Positions 40,406-46,926 of a stretch of 64,000 nucleotides of DNA are shown one piece after another. Location of the stretch: positions 1,488,001 through 1,552,000 of the forward strand of contig NZ_CP093342.1 in NCBI RefSeq assembly GCF_022637555.1, given 5' to 3'. The notes under the pieces are model-generated. The model worked only from the letters and a program-made list of their open reading frames with translations. It had not been told where the DNA came from and searched no databases. Each line of letters begins with the position of its first letter. The stretch's first letter is position 1. A program made the position numbers and the translations under genes. The stretch comes from Microbacterium sp. H1-D42 (lineage in GTDB: Bacteria > Actinomycetota > Actinomycetes > Actinomycetales > Microbacteriaceae).

Positions 40406-40422
40406 CAGTCGACGATGTGCCG

Positions 40423-41322
40423 TCAGTAGTCGACGCGACGACCGAACTGACGAGGGCCGCGGGGCGGCCGCGAGCACACCGCGGCATCCCGCAGCCGGAC
40501 CAGCTCATGCGGCTGCACGCCCGCGGCGGTCGCGAAGGCGTCCAGCGAGGCGAACCCGCCCTGCGCGGTGCGCTGCTTCACCAGCTTGCGCGCCTGCCGG
40601 GCAGTGATCCCTGGCAGCCCGGCCAGAGCGTCAGCATCCGCTGTGTTCACATCCACTGGCTCTGCGGCCTCGTCCGTCGCCTGTGCGGGGGCATCGAAGA
40701 ACTCGGCGCTGGAGGCGCCGGCGCGCGCCGCCAGCTGATCGGCCTCGGTCGGACCCGTCTGCGCGGCGCGAGCCGTCTGTGCTTGCGCGGTGTCTGTCGT
40801 CGAACGATTCGATGAGCGGGCGCTGCGGGATCCACCGCGACGACCGGAAGCCTGGCGGCGCTCGTCCTGCTGGCGAGCGGTTTCGCGCGCTGTCGCCTCG
40901 GTGCGCGCCTCGTCGGCCGCAGTCCTGGCGTTCTGCCTGGCCTTCGCGCGCCGTGCGGCTCGCGTCTCACCCGACGACGCCGCGGATGACGACACGGCGG
41001 ACGTGCTGCCGCCTGCTCGGCGTTCCCACATCGCGCGCAGCCAGCCGGGGTTGGCCATCAGCGCCAGCACCATCCCGGCGATGTACACGAGTGCTGCCAG
41101 CAACGGCTGCCACTGGCCCCAGATCGGCAGGTGCACCAGGATCGCCAGCACACCGAGCACGACACCGGTGATCGTCCACCGCAGCATCCGCCCGACGATC
41201 CCGATGATCAGAAAACCCAGCCACGAGAGATACGAACCGGGGATGAACGCCGAGATCATCCAGGTGCTCATGCCGAGCATCCAGCCGATCGTGGGCCCCT
41301 CGGCGGTGCGCGCGGTGCTCAC
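40423..41322 (-). CDS. Membrane-anchored helix-hairpin-helix protein of the Ycf46/DUF1257 operon
   Basis: A 299-residue protein with two or three hydrophobic segments at about 14-35, 45-62 and 65-92, then a long charged Ala/Arg/Ser linker (about 100-215). A C-terminal helix-hairpin-helix domain begins VDVNTADADALAGLPGI (about 222-238), related to the ComEA-type nucleic-acid-binding unit. The last residues are GRRVDY, close to the GRTVDY end of the ATPase in the same operon. Start GTG 41322 overlaps the upstream stop (GTGA). It could hold the complex at the membrane or touch DNA; that is inferred. Confidence 0.8.
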   Translation of the reverse strand: MSTARTAEGPTIGWMLGMSTWMISAFIPGSYLSWLGFLIIGIVGRMLRWTITGVVLGVLAILVHLPIWGQWQPLLAALVYIAGMVLALMANPGWLRAMWERRAGGSTSAVSSSAASSGETRAARRAKARQNARTAADEARTEATARETARQQDERRQASGRRGGSRSARSSNRSTTDTAQAQTARAAQTGPTEADQLAARAGASSAEFFDAPAQATDEAAEPVDVNTADADALAGLPGITARQARKLVKQRTAQGGFASLDAFATAAGVQPHELVRLRDAAVCSRPPRGPRQFGRRVDY

Positions 41323-41864
41323 GAGCGACCGTCGCGCACGCTGAGCACCATGGTCACGCTGTCGTCCTCCTGACGCGACTCCGAGACCAGCTCGAATCCG
41401 GCGTCATCAGCGCGGGTGCGGATGCGGGCGGCGACCTCCTGCTGCACGCGGCGGGCGTAGGCGGTGTCGATCCGCGTCATGAGCGCGGTCGCGTCGCCGA
41501 CATCAGCGTCGCGTCCGTCGGCGCCGGCGACGTGCGCGGTCCAGATGCCGTCCGCATCGCGCGTCATCCGCAGCGACAGATCGTCCACCACGGCGGTGAG
41601 TTCGCCGTCGACGGTGCCGACCGAGGTCGCCCCGAGGTCGTGCAGGGCGGATGCCAGCAGGTCGGCGTTCTTCATGCGGGTCTGCACCTGCACCGGCGTG
41701 GCATGCTCATCTGCCGTTGCCGGCCGAGCAGGGGCGCCCTTGCCCGGCTTCGCGGCACGGGTGTTCTCAGCACCGGACTGCGACTGCACACCTGCTGCGC
41801 CGATGCCGCCGACGATGCCGGCGACAGCGAGGGCAGCGGGGATGAGGAGTAGAGAGACGCTCAT
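41319..41864 (-). CDS. DUF1257 (Ycf35-like) protein with N-terminal membrane anchor
   Basis: A 181-residue protein. A hydrophobic N-terminus (about residues 3-26) and an Ala/Lys/Pro linker precede the domain at about 55-180. The domain contains TRMKNADLLASALHDLG and the end IDTAYARRVQQEVAARI followed by GFELV. These match DUF1257, the family of the algal and cyanobacterial Ycf35 protein, where the same TxxYAxxxV pattern occurs. The function is not established. The membrane anchor is unlike the soluble Ycf35. It overlaps the genes on both sides by 4 bp. Confidence 0.72.
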   Translation of the reverse strand: MSVSLLLIPAALAVAGIVGGIGAAGVQSQSGAENTRAAKPGKGAPARPATADEHATPVQVQTRMKNADLLASALHDLGATSVGTVDGELTAVVDDLSLRMTRDADGIWTAHVAGADGRDADVGDATALMTRIDTAYARRVQQEVAARIRTRADDAGFELVSESRQEDDSVTMVLSVRDGRS

Positions 41865-42586
41865 GCGACACGCTCCTGGGGTCGGTCGGCGCGCACGCCG
41901 AGGTCGTCGAAAAGCGCGGAGAGCGCGGCATCGGATGCCCAGCCGTTGACACTCACGAGTCCGTCAGGGCCGATGCGCACCTCTAAGGTGTCCCGACGCC
42001 CATCGGACGCGATGCGCCGCACTTCGTCGGCATGCGCCGGGGTGAGGGCTCTGATGCCCTGGTTCGTGGAGCCGATCCACGGGCGTCGAGTGTCGGGATG
42101 CTCGCGCAGGTACGGGCCGTCGCACAGCAGATCGGTGGCGTCGAGCAGAGCGGCGATGTCGGCACGGTCGGCTGACCACCGCTCGAGGTCCGGCAGCGTG
42201 TGCCCGCTGAACGCCATCACCGTCATCCCCGCGTCACGGAATGCGTGAGCGATCGGTGCGAGGGCGGCAGCCTGCTCGAACGGCTCTCCACCGAGCAGCG
42301 TTATTCCGGTCGCACCTGCCGCGCGGGCGGTGTCGACCCACTCGGCTGCCACCGTGACCGGATCGGAGAGCACGCCACCGCGTGTCGCCCAGAGCTGGGG
42401 GTTGAAGCATTCGGGGCAGTGCACTCGGCAGCCCTGCACCCACAGCGCGGCGCGACGACCAGGGCCCTCCGCCTCGGTGGCAGGCAGGAACCGCGACCAG
42501 CGCAGCGGACCCGCCGCTGGCGCCGGTTCGACGGTGCCCAGCAGCGTGGGCACCTCGACACCGGGGGACTGCGCGTGCACGATCAT
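41861..42586 (-). CDS. Radical-SAM activase-like 4Fe-4S protein
   Basis: A 241-residue protein with CX3CX2C at Cys 53, 57 and 60 (GCRVHCPEC), the cluster motif of radical SAM enzymes, and GGEP at about 99-102, the SAM-binding motif. Size and layout resemble NrdG/PflA activases, but there is no ribonucleotide reductase or formate lyase gene nearby, so its target is probably a partner in this operon. ATG 42586 overlaps the DUF2997 stop (TGATG), with GAGGA upstream. The C-terminal 35 residues carry a VRIGPDGLVSVNG strand pair resembling the start of DUF2997. Confidence 0.85.
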   Translation of the reverse strand: MIVHAQSPGVEVPTLLGTVEPAPAAGPLRWSRFLPATEAEGPGRRAALWVQGCRVHCPECFNPQLWATRGGVLSDPVTVAAEWVDTARAAGATGITLLGGEPFEQAAALAPIAHAFRDAGMTVMAFSGHTLPDLERWSADRADIAALLDATDLLCDGPYLREHPDTRRPWIGSTNQGIRALTPAHADEVRRIASDGRRDTLEVRIGPDGLVSVNGWASDAALSALFDDLGVRADRPQERVA

Positions 42587-42792
42587 CCGGTGCGATCCTC
42601 GTCACGCAGATCATTGGCTGCGGTCGCGGCGACGCCGGCGTAGTCAGCCGTGTACGACGACGAGGTCGTGGTGGCGTCGAGCAGGTCCTCGAGTGCGGAG
42701 ATGTACGCGAGGCACTCGTCTCCGGTCATCCCCAGTGTCTCGGCGGCCACCGAGCCGTCCGGGCGAAGATTCACGATCAGCTGCTTCTGCAT
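42583..42792 (-). CDS. DUF2997 protein
   Basis: A 69-residue protein beginning MQKQLIVNLRPDGSVAAETLG, followed by the helix GDECLAYISALEDLL; this strand-strand-helix pattern is DUF2997. The tail from about residue 42 is Ser/Thr/Tyr and then Ala/Asp-rich. The single Cys 31 at the start of the helix is a position often conserved in the family as I recall it, and could be the site acted on by the radical SAM neighbour. AGGAG lies eight bases before ATG 42792. It is placed between the ATPase and the radical SAM gene. Confidence 0.8.
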   Translation of the reverse strand: MQKQLIVNLRPDGSVAAETLGMTGDECLAYISALEDLLDATTTSSSYTADYAGVAATAANDLRDEDRTG

Positions 42793-42820
42793 GCTCTGCT
42801 CCTGTGCGATCCGGAACGTG

Positions 42821-44443
42821 TCAGTAGTCCACCGTACGGCCGCCACGGCGCGCCGACAGCACACCGGCCGACTCTCGCGTGCCGGACTCGGTGGCGTCGA
42901 GGTCTTCGGTTCCGGTGGCGCGCACCGCGCGCTCGGCAGCCCACTCACGGATGCCGCTGACCTCCTCGGCCTGCGTGACGGCCAGCGGGATCGTCGAGTC
43001 GACCACCTGCTCGAGCATCGCGCGATCCACCGGACGCCCCGCACTGTACCCCTCGAAAAGGGCCGAGACGACGGCCTGCTCGATCTCTGCACCCGAATGG
43101 TTCTCGGTGCGCCGGACGAGGTCGTCGATCACAGCCTCGTCTGCGGCGAGCGCCGCGAGGCCGTTGGCATCGGATGCCTGTGCGCTCAGCTGCAGTCGCC
43201 AGATCACCTCGCGCTCAGCGGCCGTCGGCAGGTCGACGAAGAAGATCTCATCGAATCGTCCCTTGCGCAGGAACTCCGGTGGGAGGGCGTCGATGTTGTT
43301 CGCCGTGGCGACGACGAAGACCGGACGCTTCTTCTCCTGCATCCACGTCAGGAATGTGCCGAACACCCGCGCCGAGGTGCCGGAGTCGCCGCCTCCGGTG
43401 GTGTTCGAGAAGCCCTTCTCGATCTCATCCACCCAGAGGATGCACGGGGCGACGGCCTCGGCAGTGGCGATCGCGGTGCGCAGGTTCTGCTCGCTGGAGC
43501 CGACCAGACCCGAGAACACCCGTCCGATGTCGAGCCGCAGCAGCGGCAGACCCCACGATGCCGCGGTCGCCTTGGCGGTCAGCGACTTCCCACAGCCGGG
43601 AACGCCGGTGATCAGCACACCCTTCGGATCGGGCAGCCCGTACTGCTTGGCCCCGGCCATCCACGAGCCGTTGCGGCGCGAGAGCCAGCGCTTCATGTTG
43701 TTCAGGCCGCCGACGTCGTCGAGGTCGATGTCGGAGCTCATGAATTCGAGCAGCCCCGACTTGCGGACGATCTGCGCCTTCTCATCGAGCACCACCGGCA
43801 CGTCACCCGCGCCCAGCGTGCCGTCATTGACCATCGCGCGGGCGAACGCGTTCTCCGCCTCGGCCATCGACAGTCCGAGTGCGGCATGCACCAGCTGCTC
43901 GCGGGCCGCGTCGTCGGCGTCGACGCGAATGCGACCGGGGCCGGAGGAGTTGCGTTCGATCATGGTGTCCAGCAGCTCGCGGATCTCCTCCGTCGACGGC
44001 AGCGGGAACTCCAGCAGGTGCGTGAGCTCGTTCAGCTCTGCGGGGATCGTGCGCACTGGCGAGATCAGCACGAGCACTCGCGATGCGTCGCCATGCCGGA
44101 AGTCCAGTGCGGTCTCTCGGGCGGTGCGGACGACCAGTGGCTCGCCCTGACGGTGCTCCGAGCCGAAATACGCGTGCAGGTCGCAGAAGATGAACACCCC
44201 GGCATCCTGCAGACCGGCGATGTGCGACAGCGCCCTGGCCGGGTTGGCCGTGTTGGTGATGCTCTTGCCCTCGGGGTCAATCAGACCCAGGGCGCTGGTC
44301 CAGGTCCAGACCGGACGAGGATGCCGCTGCGCGGAGGCGGCCAGTGAGATCGCCTCGATGGCGCGCACCTCCTCGCCGGTCTCGAGGTACAGCAGCGGCA
44401 GACGGGCCTTGAAGGCCTCATCGAGCGTCTCAGCGAAAGTCAT
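42821..44443 (-). CDS. Ycf46-like AAA+ ATPase
   Basis: A 540-residue ATPase. The N-terminal domain (about 1-225) opens with LLYLETGEEVRAI, the non-ATPase part typical of Ycf46, and is followed by a complete AAA domain: Walker A GVPGCGKS (280-287), Walker B ILWVDEIEK (335-343), sensor 1 ATANN (379-383) and the Arg-finger region RKGRFDE (393-399), then a lid to about 475. The tail ends GRTVDY. Ycf46 is a conserved plastid/cyanobacterial protein of unclear role. ATG 44443 is chosen; the extra 36 residues of the longer frame come from the upstream gene. It is predicted to form a ring that remodels partner proteins. Confidence 0.85.
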   Translation of the reverse strand: MTFAETLDEAFKARLPLLYLETGEEVRAIEAISLAASAQRHPRPVWTWTSALGLIDPEGKSITNTANPARALSHIAGLQDAGVFIFCDLHAYFGSEHRQGEPLVVRTARETALDFRHGDASRVLVLISPVRTIPAELNELTHLLEFPLPSTEEIRELLDTMIERNSSGPGRIRVDADDAAREQLVHAALGLSMAEAENAFARAMVNDGTLGAGDVPVVLDEKAQIVRKSGLLEFMSSDIDLDDVGGLNNMKRWLSRRNGSWMAGAKQYGLPDPKGVLITGVPGCGKSLTAKATAASWGLPLLRLDIGRVFSGLVGSSEQNLRTAIATAEAVAPCILWVDEIEKGFSNTTGGGDSGTSARVFGTFLTWMQEKKRPVFVVATANNIDALPPEFLRKGRFDEIFFVDLPTAAEREVIWRLQLSAQASDANGLAALAADEAVIDDLVRRTENHSGAEIEQAVVSALFEGYSAGRPVDRAMLEQVVDSTIPLAVTQAEEVSGIREWAAERAVRATGTEDLDATESGTRESAGVLSARRGGRTVDY

Positions 44444-44453
44444 GCCATCTCTC

Positions 44454-45227
44454 TCATTCGTCCACGGTGACGGACCATTCGCCGCCGCTCGATTCGATCC
44501 GGAACAGCACGGTGCCTGGCACCGGCCAGGATGTGCGGGTGGTGAAGTCATCGACGTCGTTCACGTGCGGATCGCCCCGGTACTCGAACTCGGGGGAGAA
44601 CGCGGTGACCCGCAGGTACCCCGAGCCTGTGTGCGTGAACCGGGCGCTGAGGGCATCTCCTCGGTAGGAGAGCATCTCATCACCTGAGCCCTCGGCGGCA
44701 CCGTCGATCACGGGGGTGGAGCGCACCGGCTCGGCCAGCACCTGCCATTCGTTGTCAATGGCGGCGAACCACAGCCGACTGTCGGTCAGCGCCGGGGTCG
44801 CGTAGACGACGTCCTCGCTGTCCCACAGGGCCGACAGGGATGCGAGACCGTCACGCTCCGGGTACTCGCCCGCAGCCCCTGGCGTCTGGTAGACGCTGAT
44901 GTAGTCGTTGCCGTAGTGGTCCGTGGCGTCGTGGGATTCCGGGCGGCGCAGCAGGAGCGGATCGGAGTCCTTGTCGAAGGTCATCCAGCCGCCCTGTCGG
45001 TCGCCGGCGATGACGCCGTCTTCCAGCGTCAGCTCCAGCGGGTTGTCCTCGTAGTACGGGTTGACGCGCTCGCCGTAGCCGCCACCGCCGTCCCCGATCA
45101 GCACGCCGTCGCCCATCAGTGTGATGTTGGGCACGACGAAGAAGGCGGCGATCATGACGCCGACTGCGCCGAAGATCCAGGTGTAGCGCGAGAACGTGCG
45201 GATGCGGCCCACTGCCGGATCACTCAT
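44454..45227 (-). CDS. Single-pass membrane protein with ectodomain (second of a related pair)
   Basis: A 257-residue protein with one hydrophobic helix at about 16-36 and a long outside domain rich in Trp, Tyr, Asp and Gly that looks like beta sandwich. It shares the TPGAAGE motif, an LW pair and the closing SSG-x-WSV/WTI strand with the upstream gene product, so the two are probably diverged duplicates. It overlaps the upstream gene by 8 bp and ends 10 bp before the ATPase gene. No enzyme motif is visible. It may be the outside part of a membrane complex powered by the ATPase. Confidence 0.7.
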   Translation of the reverse strand: MSDPAVGRIRTFSRYTWIFGAVGVMIAAFFVVPNITLMGDGVLIGDGGGGYGERVNPYYEDNPLELTLEDGVIAGDRQGGWMTFDKDSDPLLLRRPESHDATDHYGNDYISVYQTPGAAGEYPERDGLASLSALWDSEDVVYATPALTDSRLWFAAIDNEWQVLAEPVRSTPVIDGAAEGSGDEMLSYRGDALSARFTHTGSGYLRVTAFSPEFEYRGDPHVNDVDDFTTRTSWPVPGTVLFRIESSGGEWSVTVDE

Positions 45228-46017
45228 CGGCGGCTCCAGTCGGAGTCGGAGTCGATGTCGGTGTGGCGCTCGACTGCGGCGCCGGCTCGTAGAACTCGAT
45301 CGTCCAGCTGGAGTCGCCCGAGGAGTCGACGGTGAAGACCGCGCTGTTGGTGTTGGGCCAGGCGATGCTCTGCGATCCGTCTTCGAACCAGGGGTAGTTG
45401 TCTTCGACGCCCTGCTCGGTGACGATGTCGATGGTGGTGTGGCCGCTGACGGTCACTCGGGCCGCCGTCGCGGGACCGGCGTAGAGGAAGGTGCGCGACG
45501 AGGTCCCCGACACCGTGCCGGAGACCGTCTCGATGCCTGCGGGCTTGATGCGCACGGTCCAAGGATCGTCGGTGCGCGTACGCGGCCACAGGGTCATCTC
45601 CGCCGCAGAGGGGATCAGATAGTCGCCCACATCGCTGTAGCTGTAGAACGACACCGCCTCTTCGCTCTCGCCAGCGGCCCCAGGGGTGAGGAAGTAGTCG
45701 GAGAACTCGGAATCGTCGAGGAACGCCAAGGCGAGCGGCGCGCCGGGAGTCAGTCCGGTCAGCGGGATGTACTGCTGCCCGCGGCCACTCCAGGTCTCGC
45801 CGTCAGCGGTGGCCGCGATCGGAGCGGGATTCTCCCACGGGTAGTAGTAATCGTCCGAGGTGGTGGTCCGGCCGGAATCCGGGGTGGCGCTGCCACCATT
45901 GGCGAAGGTGACGATGCCGATGATCAGGATGAGGATCAGGCCGAACACGGTCACGACGCCATTGAAACTGCGCAGGCGCATGCGGGCGTGCGCGCTCGCG
46001 TCTCCGGTCCGGCTCAC
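45220..46017 (-). CDS. Single-pass membrane protein with ectodomain (first of a related pair)
   Basis: A 265-residue protein, the first gene of the seven-gene operon. One membrane helix lies at about residues 20-40 (VVTVFGLILILIIGIVTFA). The outside domain contains TPGAAGE near residue 110, and the chain closes with VDSSGDSSWTIEFYE before a Ser/Thr/Pro tail. GTG 46017 has GAGGG about eight bases upstream. The pattern of aromatic and small residues suggests a beta-rich sensing or binding domain; the ligand is unknown. Confidence 0.7.
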   Translation of the reverse strand: MSRTGDASAHARMRLRSFNGVVTVFGLILILIIGIVTFANGGSATPDSGRTTTSDDYYYPWENPAPIAATADGETWSGRGQQYIPLTGLTPGAPLALAFLDDSEFSDYFLTPGAAGESEEAVSFYSYSDVGDYLIPSAAEMTLWPRTRTDDPWTVRIKPAGIETVSGTVSGTSSRTFLYAGPATAARVTVSGHTTIDIVTEQGVEDNYPWFEDGSQSIAWPNTNSAVFTVDSSGDSSWTIEFYEPAPQSSATPTSTPTPTGAADE

Positions 46018-46038
46018 TCGGGCATCCCTCCGCGTACC

Positions 46039-46044
46039 ACCCTA
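46039..46044 (-). promoter_or_regulatory. Putative -10 box of the seven-gene Ycf46/DUF1257 operon
   Basis: TAGGGT on the minus strand, 22 bases before GTG 46017 and within the 36 bp gap after the glycosylase-like gene. It would give a short leader with its own ribosome-binding site. Read-through from upstream genes is also possible. Confidence 0.35.
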
Positions 46045-46053
46045 GTGGGCGGA

Positions 46054-46926
46054 TCAGACGGCACTGGAAGAGCCCAGCCAGGCTTCCAACAGCGCTCGCC
46101 GCAGCAGTGCGCCGTGCTCGGCGAAGCCGCGCTGCCGGCGCACGTACTCGGCCTTGCCCTCTGCTGTCTCGATCGGCACCGGTTGCACGCCCCAGTCCGA
46201 AAGGTCGTAGGGGGCGGCTTCCATGTCGAGCACGCGGATGTCTCGCGCCAGTTCGAACGTGTCCAGCAGCAGCTCGCCGGGGATGAGCGGGCCGAGCTTG
46301 ACCGCCCACTTGTAGAGGTCCATGCCGGCATGCAGACAGCCGGGCTGTTCCAGATCGGGCTGTGACGCGCGGGTCAGCGCGAGCCGGTTGCGCGGCACGG
46401 CGTCATCGGCGAAGAAGCGGAACGCGTCGAAATGGGTGCAGCGCAGCTCGTTCGCCTCGACGACGGCGTCGGTGCCTGCCTGTCCGAGCCGCAGTGGAAT
46501 CGGATGCCGGTGCTCGTCCTCGCGGTAGACCATCGCCCACTCGTGCAGGCCGAAGCACCCGAACTGCGCCGGGCGTGATGCGGTGCGCCGCAGCATCTGC
46601 TCGACGAGGTCGGCGAGCTGGGGCTTCTCAGCGCGGAATGCGGTCGCGTCGGGCGTGACCTCGCCGGACTCGGCGCCGGGGGAGTACCAGCGCCATTCCG
46701 CGCGCTCACCGGCATCTCGCAGCGTCACGCCGGCCCCTGGGTGCCAGCGACGCAGCTGCGCCGGCTTGTAGGCGTAATAGGTGAACAGGAAGTCGTAGAC
46801 AGGATGCTTCTCGCCCCGTTGCGCGCGCTCGCGATGCGCGGCTGTGAGGGCATCCGCGCGTTCTGCATGTGCTCTCTCGCGGACGGTCCAGTCCGCGTGA
46901 TCGAGTCGCTCGCCGGTCAGGATCAC
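46054..46926 (-). CDS. 3-methyladenine DNA glycosylase-like protein
   Basis: A 290-residue actinobacterial protein of the group usually annotated as 3-methyladenine DNA glycosylase, recognised by HPVYDFLFTYYAYKPAQLRRWHPG (about residues 41-64) and FGCFGLHEWAMVY (about 122-134). I see no helix-hairpin-helix-GPD or AlkD repeat, so the enzyme activity rests on annotation by similarity only. The start is GTG 46926, seven bases after the App1 gene, and the two are likely one operon. Confidence 0.7.
   Translation of the reverse strand: MILTGERLDHADWTVRERAHAERADALTAAHRERAQRGEKHPVYDFLFTYYAYKPAQLRRWHPGAGVTLRDAGERAEWRWYSPGAESGEVTPDATAFRAEKPQLADLVEQMLRRTASRPAQFGCFGLHEWAMVYREDEHRHPIPLRLGQAGTDAVVEANELRCTHFDAFRFFADDAVPRNRLALTRASQPDLEQPGCLHAGMDLYKWAVKLGPLIPGELLLDTFELARDIRVLDMEAAPYDLSDWGVQPVPIETAEGKAEYVRRQRGFAEHGALLRRALLEAWLGSSSAV

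Follow-up and report, generated by a model that had tools for sequence, protein, structure and literature searches.

What kind of machine is encoded by an operon in which a Ycf46-like AAA+ ATPase stands together with a radical S-adenosylmethionine (SAM) protein, DUF2997 and DUF1257-like proteins and several membrane proteins, and what might hold its parts together? The question is raised by seven genes on the minus strand (46017-40423) of a 64,000-nucleotide stretch of the genome of Microbacterium sp. H1-D42 (contig NZ_CP093342.1, positions 1,488,001 to 1,552,000), referred to below as the window. Comparison with related loci indicates that five of the genes form a conserved module and that two of its products, the AAA protein and a membrane protein with a helix-hairpin-helix (HhH) domain, end in the same short C-terminal tail. 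Tentatively, and with somewhat less than even confidence, the system may be interpreted as a membrane-tethered p97-type ring that docks via the C-terminal tails and has DUF1257 and DUF2997 for recurring cofactors.

The open reading frames (ORFs) follow one another in the order ecto1, ecto2, AAA, DUF2997, radical SAM, DUF1257-like and HhH, and at each junction the frames either overlap, by 4-8 bp, or leave a gap, of 10 bp in one case and 28 bp in the other, in keeping with the sequence-only reading of this DNA, which had listed seven genes on one strand with overlaps or gaps under 30 bp. Its claim of four membrane-anchored parts agrees with hydropathy analysis, which found transmembrane (TM)-like segments in ecto1 (one), ecto2 (one), the DUF1257-like protein (one) and the HhH protein (three). 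The AAA gene (42821..44443, minus strand as all seven) encodes 540 aa from an ATG at 44443; the HhH gene (40423..41322) encodes 299 aa comprising the three TM-like segments, a low-complexity linker, an HHH_3 domain and the C-terminal tail. The AAA protein ends in Gly-Arg-x-Val-Asp-Tyr followed by the stop codon (42821..42841) and the HhH protein in Gly-Arg-Arg-Val-Asp-Tyr, also followed by the stop codon (40423..40443). A search of the whole 3.66-Mb genome with the DNA pattern for G-R-x-h-D-[FY]-stop returned exactly two matches, namely these two gene ends; the backward control of the pattern gave one match.

The related loci were the best 80 of at least 588 AAA-relative pattern matches in 84,980 species genomes and, with the window added, made up a set of 81 that is biased to close relatives; the record titles name actinobacteria, Bacillota/Clostridia, Gastranaerophilales/Melainabacteria, one betaproteobacterium and one planctomycete, some labels of metagenome-assembled genomes (MAGs) being doubtful (e.g., L071, L064). 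All five core genes (AAA, radical SAM, DUF1257, DUF2997 and HhH) are present in 66 of the 81 loci, and 65 of these 66 contain a copy of all five on the AAA strand; many of the other 15 loci are on short or cut contigs, and in L062 the radical SAM gene is located elsewhere in the genome. The neighbourhood count, proposed earlier as a check, thus indicates a conserved one-strand AAA-DUF2997-radical SAM-DUF1257-HhH module, and the earlier remark that the machine was undescribed is in line with the literature searched, where no paper describing this gene set was found.

Most system AAA proteins, judging by the C-termini read, have a variable stretch followed by a terminal R-G-G-R-x-[VLI]-D-[FYVLI], and the HhH proteins end in the same R-x-h-D-Phi, the glycines before the Arg not being conserved in their tails. 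Counted with the expression R-x-[VILM]-[DE]-[FYLIVWM]-end, the tail is carried by 71 of 83 AAA ORFs and 88 of 92 HhH ORFs, versus 2 of 5,926 unlabelled ORFs, a background that includes many spurious frames; both of the unlabelled ORFs adjoin core genes (in L064 and L067), and one DUF2997 protein (L073) also bears the tail. In the five-gene loci the tail is found on the AAA or the HhH protein in 66 of 66 cases and on both in 59, several of the misses being due to two extra residues or one changed end. The HhH proteins that share this ending are very divergent (17% mean column identity); the set was obtained with an iterative profile, and an HHH_3 Pfam match was present in all 27 aligned relatives, the Pfam check having covered 27 of the 92.

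Samples of the host's own phylum (198 genomes), of its family (249 genomes) and of the cyanobacterial phylum (146 genomes) were also searched. In the family, AAA (E <=1e-60) and DUF2997 each occur in 11 genomes, and the 11 are identical (hypergeometric 2e-19, ignoring ancestry); in the own-phylum sample, AAA was found in 7 genomes and DUF2997 in 2. The tail is absent from all five own-phylum AAA relatives in genomes without DUF2997 (L085-L089) and from all 13 cyanobacterial Ycf46-type loci read (L134-L146), and it is present in the 17 closest cyanobacterial-phylum loci (L117-L133, some from the same genomes as members of the 81-locus set). A tail common to all Ycf46-type AAA proteins was considered and rejected, given the 13 cyanobacterial loci that lack it; some cyanobacterial AAA proteins end in R-L/M-E-F, which is loosely similar and lies outside the motif.

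The window AAA protein is clearly recognised by PF00004 (105.1 bits, cut-off 21.2), and Walker A and B motifs can be read in it. Its domain plan includes a first tier (residues ~1-225), the AAA second tier (~225-507), a flexible linker and the conserved C-terminal tail. The Pfam scan gave no AAA match in the first tier; fold comparison indicated a two-tier D1-D2 architecture, the match beginning at p97 residue 210. The AlphaFold 2 model predicts the tail block with a predicted local distance difference test (pLDDT) score of 77 after a linker block of pLDDT 48, and places a strand/bridge residue at the tail Arg. We take the family to be that of Ycf46. The system AAA profile matches 93 of the 146 cyanobacterial-phylum genomes at 1e-30, tail-bearing ones included; of six AAA loci read there, four have DUF1257 adjoining AAA, one of these four has DUF2997 as well, and none of the six has an HhH or radical SAM match.

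AAA, DUF1257 and DUF2997 occur as a trio in phages of Rhizobium (two), Aeromonas, Agrobacterium, Rhodobacter and Pseudomonas (L178 5806-7239, L183, L181, L188, L189, L190), the DUF1257 and DUF2997 matches of the Agrobacterium phage being weak (E 0.002-0.003); no radical SAM or HhH match was found in the stretches read of these six phages. Since the trio is found without a system radical SAM protein beside it both in the phages and in cyanobacterial loci (L167, L187), the comparison argues that the trio may be the machine and the radical SAM protein an add-on. The gene after AAA, unrelated to HhH, ends in R-x-h-x-Phi in four of the six phages and in a Rhizobium prophage-like plasmid; the Agrobacterium phage misses this ending by one added residue, and the Pseudomonas phage has none. 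Over 18 phage, satellite and plasmid loci, R-x-h-x-Phi terminates 10 of 193 complete non-AAA coding sequences (CDS) versus 25 of 5,926 background ORFs (binomial 1.4e-8); 184 CDS were counted first, nine complete ones from L184, L185 and L186 were added with no further match, and the count excludes cut CDS as well as the four actinobacterial plasmid loci that carry the core. One of the ten tails (Comamonas +1) is probably a chance match, and the excess is no more than suggestive.

Several mobile loci have gene contents of their own. Streptococcus satellite Javan368 and a Comamonas plasmid contain AAA and tail-bearing neighbours, with no DUF1257, DUF2997 or radical SAM match in the stretch; these two loci (L182, L184) have in common, by reading, the AAA, a protein of ~575 aa and two small proteins that look alike, some with R-x-h-x-Phi ends. 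In the Mycobacterium phages Krili and Firecracker (L180, L191) the AAA protein ends in R-V-L-D-L, and a nearby 266-aa protein contains tail-like stretches near its C-terminus. Neither DUF1257 nor DUF2997 is matched in the stretch of the Treponema succinifaciens plasmid pTRESU01 (L177), where a radical SAM protein and an AAA protein ending in R-K-L-E-M are encoded beside a gene annotated as phage baseplate assembly protein V. Two Paenibacillus plasmids (L193, L194) carry a distant radical SAM protein, a hypothetical protein, AAA, DUF1257 and DUF2997 beside a FAD-dependent thymidylate synthase. The Pseudanabaena plasmid pPg_01 (L187) has genes for GrpE, an Hsp70-family protein, DUF1257, an ATP-binding protein, DUF2997 and AAA clustered together, and L167 is similar by reading.

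In the tail-docking interpretation preferred here, the tail would be a docking handle for one receptor, probably the AAA protein itself, which is favoured because it is the only component common to the tail-bearing loci. The membrane HhH protein would thereby attach to the ring at the contact otherwise made by the C-termini of the ring itself, which it would compete with or relieve, and ATP-driven pulling would then remodel a client at the membrane. The radical SAM protein may modify some part of the system, with the tail and DUF2997 as the leading candidates, and so set the state of the machine, which is the weakest step of the scheme; the ecto proteins might add a lineage-specific outside sensor or client.

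A number of observations weigh against this interpretation. The genomes of L022, L071 and L078 proved to be without DUF2997 or a system-scoring radical SAM protein in genome-wide tests that covered these two families and left DUF1257 out, and the L041 genome is without a system-scoring radical SAM protein; because members are missing from these four genomes, the full set is not obligatory. At least three of the four, being MAGs by title or origin, may be incomplete. Nor is the tail confined to the five-gene set: the AAA proteins of the two Mycobacterium phages, of the Treponema plasmid and of L090 fit the expression, the last being a short contig with AAA, a DUF1257-like gene (by reading) and DUF2997, whose AAA has a fitting R-R-I-E-L end. 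Nine of the ten phage, satellite and plasmid tails lack the Asp, so that these tails may be a looser and partly chance resemblance, and three of the loci with tail-bearing neighbours are close relatives. The spurious frames in the ORF background count on the same side, as does the fact that we know of no biochemistry for DUF1257 and DUF2997. As a separate observation, in L041 (5993-8605) HhH and AAA, both with intact tails, are ~70 bp apart with no radical SAM gene between them, and the relative L031 has one there.

Among other explanations, the one that fares best, though we consider it unlikely, is that the radical SAM protein has the tails as its substrate, R-x-h-D-Y/F having Asp in the place of Gly and the Asp being modified on both the ring subunits and the membrane partner. 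The radical SAM gene (41861..42586) encodes 241 aa with a PF13353 (Fer4_12) match of 102.6 bits (cut-off 22) and the motifs CxxxCxxC, GGEP and GSxNQ, the cluster cysteines being invariant in 27 aligned rows. The best named model is NrdG, at 81.3 bits, below the equivalog cut-off of 126.1, and the nearest solved structures are those of the pyruvate formate-lyase (PFL) activating enzyme (8fo0, E 2e-19; 3c8f, E 3e-19), so that the protein can be called NrdG/PflA-like. Activases of the NrdG/PflA type generally target an R-x-x-G-Y loop in a glycyl radical enzyme, and the NrdD protein of the window's own genome has near its end an R-V-M-G-Y loop with a spacing equal to that of the tail R-x-V-D-Y. 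NrdD itself is present in only 2 of the 11 system-bearing family genomes and is absent from the other nine (3 of 13 among all genomes searched; PFL-type enzymes were not searched for). The residue at position -2 also speaks for this explanation: it is D in 144 and E in 6 of the 150 R-x-h-x-Phi tails in loci with the radical SAM gene, with no other residue, while T and V (one each, beside D 8 and E 1, n=11) are seen in tails at loci without it, and phage and satellite loci also show K and L.

The same counts can be turned against the tail as substrate, as D or E is still found in 9 of the 11 tails at loci without the radical SAM gene, the Paenibacillus polymyxa plasmid pPPM1a has the radical SAM gene yet H and R at -2, and the association of residue and enzyme is confounded by ancestry. 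Moreover, the glycines before the Arg in the AAA tails are not kept in the HhH tails, and tails with intact Asp exist in the genomes of L022, L071, L078 and L041, which have no system-scoring radical SAM protein. Such genomes are G447, G449, G450 and G451, the best radical SAM scores in G450 and G451 being 109 and 100 bits versus 263-287 for true system proteins; the idea that the tail strictly requires the radical SAM protein was rejected because tails persist in genomes without it. An extended version, in which the tail would be a non-glycyl counterpart of the glycyl-radical loop, radical chemistry on the penultimate Asp would switch the AAA+ ring or couple it covalently to its anchor, and phages would have stripped-down, radical SAM-free versions, seems to us a long shot.

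Modification of DUF2997 or DUF1257 by the radical SAM protein, the working model of the sequence-only reading, is not supported by the data of this analysis and appears quite unlikely. The DUF2997 gene (42583..42792, 69 aa; PF11211 51.1 bits, cut-off 24.1) is adjacent to the radical SAM gene and overlaps it in the window, and the protein offers a candidate target in a Cys and a Thr that, together with a Gly, are invariant in 27 of 27 aligned sequences. On the other hand, where phage and cyanobacterial loci lack a system radical SAM protein beside DUF2997, the Gly-x-x-Cys is still there, and therefore the Cys need not be the site of modification. For docking and/or modification the shared tails, the strongest clue in the operon and one that the sequence-only reading did not mention, are no worse a candidate than DUF2997 and DUF1257. 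As to the second of these, the AAA, DUF2997, radical SAM (Fer4_12) and HhH (HHH_3) families named earlier stood up to hidden Markov model searches, and DUF1257 did so at the profile level and not for the single protein (41319..41864, 181 aa, hydrophobic N-terminus), to which PF06868 gave no match up to E 1, short of its gathering score. PF06868 is the commonest Pfam match among the DUF1257-like relatives, yet it was found in only 6 of 57 (best E 3.5e-4); hhalign of the window family against an eight-sequence DUF1257 alignment, seven from cyanobacterial-phylum genomes with a PF06868 match and one actinobacterial chosen by reading, gave a probability of 97.7% and E 2.3e-12 over 108 columns. The AlphaFold 2 model of the DUF1257-like protein has blocks 61-160 at pLDDT 93-98.

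A stress- or iron-sulfur-related chaperone machine is, in our estimate, similarly improbable. A review of Synechocystis ferredoxins lists DUF2997, ycf35 and fed7 as cluster g (PMC4284462), and slr0374 (Ycf46) of the same organism belongs to an operon that responds to stress, with a drop in EcaB activity on its loss cited in PMC7496141; GrpE, Hsp70, DUF1257, DUF2997 and AAA together on the Pseudanabaena plasmid point in the same direction. The window operon, however, contains no ferredoxin, Hsp70 or GrpE gene, and the hosts seem, from record titles, to range from aerobes to gut anaerobes.

The distribution of the system invites comparison with anti-phage defence cassettes, a role that we regard as less probable still. 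One genome of this genus lacks the system (G412/L203), and in it the flanking convergent genes stand stop to stop, 3 bp apart, which represents the empty site and sets the extent of the cassette in the window at 40406..46053; the flanks, GH3 and a 290-aa gene at 46054, and the further order up to leuS are intact there. Another Microbacterium (L001) has all seven genes at the identical site; the flanking genes were not seen beside the operon in L002-L004, and the 290-aa gene of G198 is ~12 kb away. The five-gene core is also carried by plasmids of Rhodococcus aetherivorans and Arthrobacter, both typed conjugative, and by two of Paenarthrobacter. The system comes and goes as a cassette, and its patchiness (11 of 249 family genomes), its exact insertion between convergent genes and its carriage on plasmids would suit a defence role, as would the resemblance of the AAA core to IetA in PADLOC (E 5.5e-22). 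But PADLOC gives only AAA cores and a weak pVip match on the radical SAM protein, five of the seven proteins having no match and no partner matching a defence model; Pfam and curated-model scans recognised no effector domain in the seven proteins, and the trio is present in phages themselves. It is hardly credible that the radical SAM protein is an ordinary activase of anaerobic ribonucleotide reductase with an incidental operon position: NrdG is its best named model and NrdD exists in the window's own genome, but the NrdG score is below the cut-off, NrdD is missing from most system-bearing family genomes, and the own NrdD lies away from the operon with a frame weakly similar to the radical SAM protein beside it.

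HHH_3 (PF12836) scores 48 bits on the window HhH protein (cut-off 27), and the curated ComEA model reaches 28.1 bits against a threshold of 152.35. In some partners (e.g., L037 at 6166 and L078) no HhH domain is visible, yet by reading the hydrophobic N-terminus and the tail are still there. In L064 (2769-3686) and L067 (5038-5970), proteins of 305 and 310 aa without an HhH-profile match end in R-N-L-D-L and R-K-L-D-L, and L065 has several HhH-type ORFs in a row upstream of radical SAM and AAA. The genes ecto1 (45220..46017, 265 aa, an N-terminal TM-like segment and an ectodomain) and ecto2 (44454..45227, 257 aa, a TM-like segment and an ectodomain) are paralogs (blastp 25% identity, E 3e-8); Pfam showed no family on ecto1 up to E 1 and none above cut-off on ecto2. 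Both contain a T-P-G-A-A-G-E stretch. Ecto genes are present in 10 of the 81 loci, i.e., the window and nine loci from Microbacteriaceae and Arthrobacter. The two proteins are lineage-specific accessories; their membrane segments are as the sequence-only reading described them, and membership of the core machine does not hold.

Ycf46, Ycf35 and DUF2997 are long-standing unknowns of plastids and cyanobacteria. The loci read suggest that all three belong to one recurring AAA machine, whose range extends to plasmids and phages. Many non-photosynthetic bacteria would have this machine connected to a membrane protein and a radical SAM enzyme. The tail shared by AAA and HhH offers a direct handle on the function of this undescribed machine; if the tail-docking interpretation is true, a p97-like bacterial machine family would be defined by a C-terminal recognition tag.

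Several known systems resemble this one in part. NrdG and PFL activase share with the radical SAM protein its CxxxCxxC family, whereas the window operon has no gene for a glycyl radical enzyme and its protein is under the NrdG cut-off. The AAA core is similar to IetA of IetAS, but none of the seven window proteins matches an IetS-type partner model, and the small partners, HhH and radical SAM are unrelated. In contrast to Cdc48/p97 (VCP), the window AAA protein has no p97-type N-domain and no Pfam AAA match in the first tier, and the partners and tail motif of the system are unrelated to those of p97. In cyanobacterial cluster g (PMC4284462), DUF2997 and DUF1257 are adjacent and accompanied by a gene for an Fe-S protein, as here; that protein is a ferredoxin and not a radical SAM enzyme, and the cluster as listed is without AAA or HhH. 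The Ycf46-type AAA proteins of cyanobacteria and plastids (slr0374), finally, belong to the same AAA family as the window protein, and it is by its C-terminal tail, lacking in the 13 cyanobacterial loci of this type, that the window protein stands apart from them.

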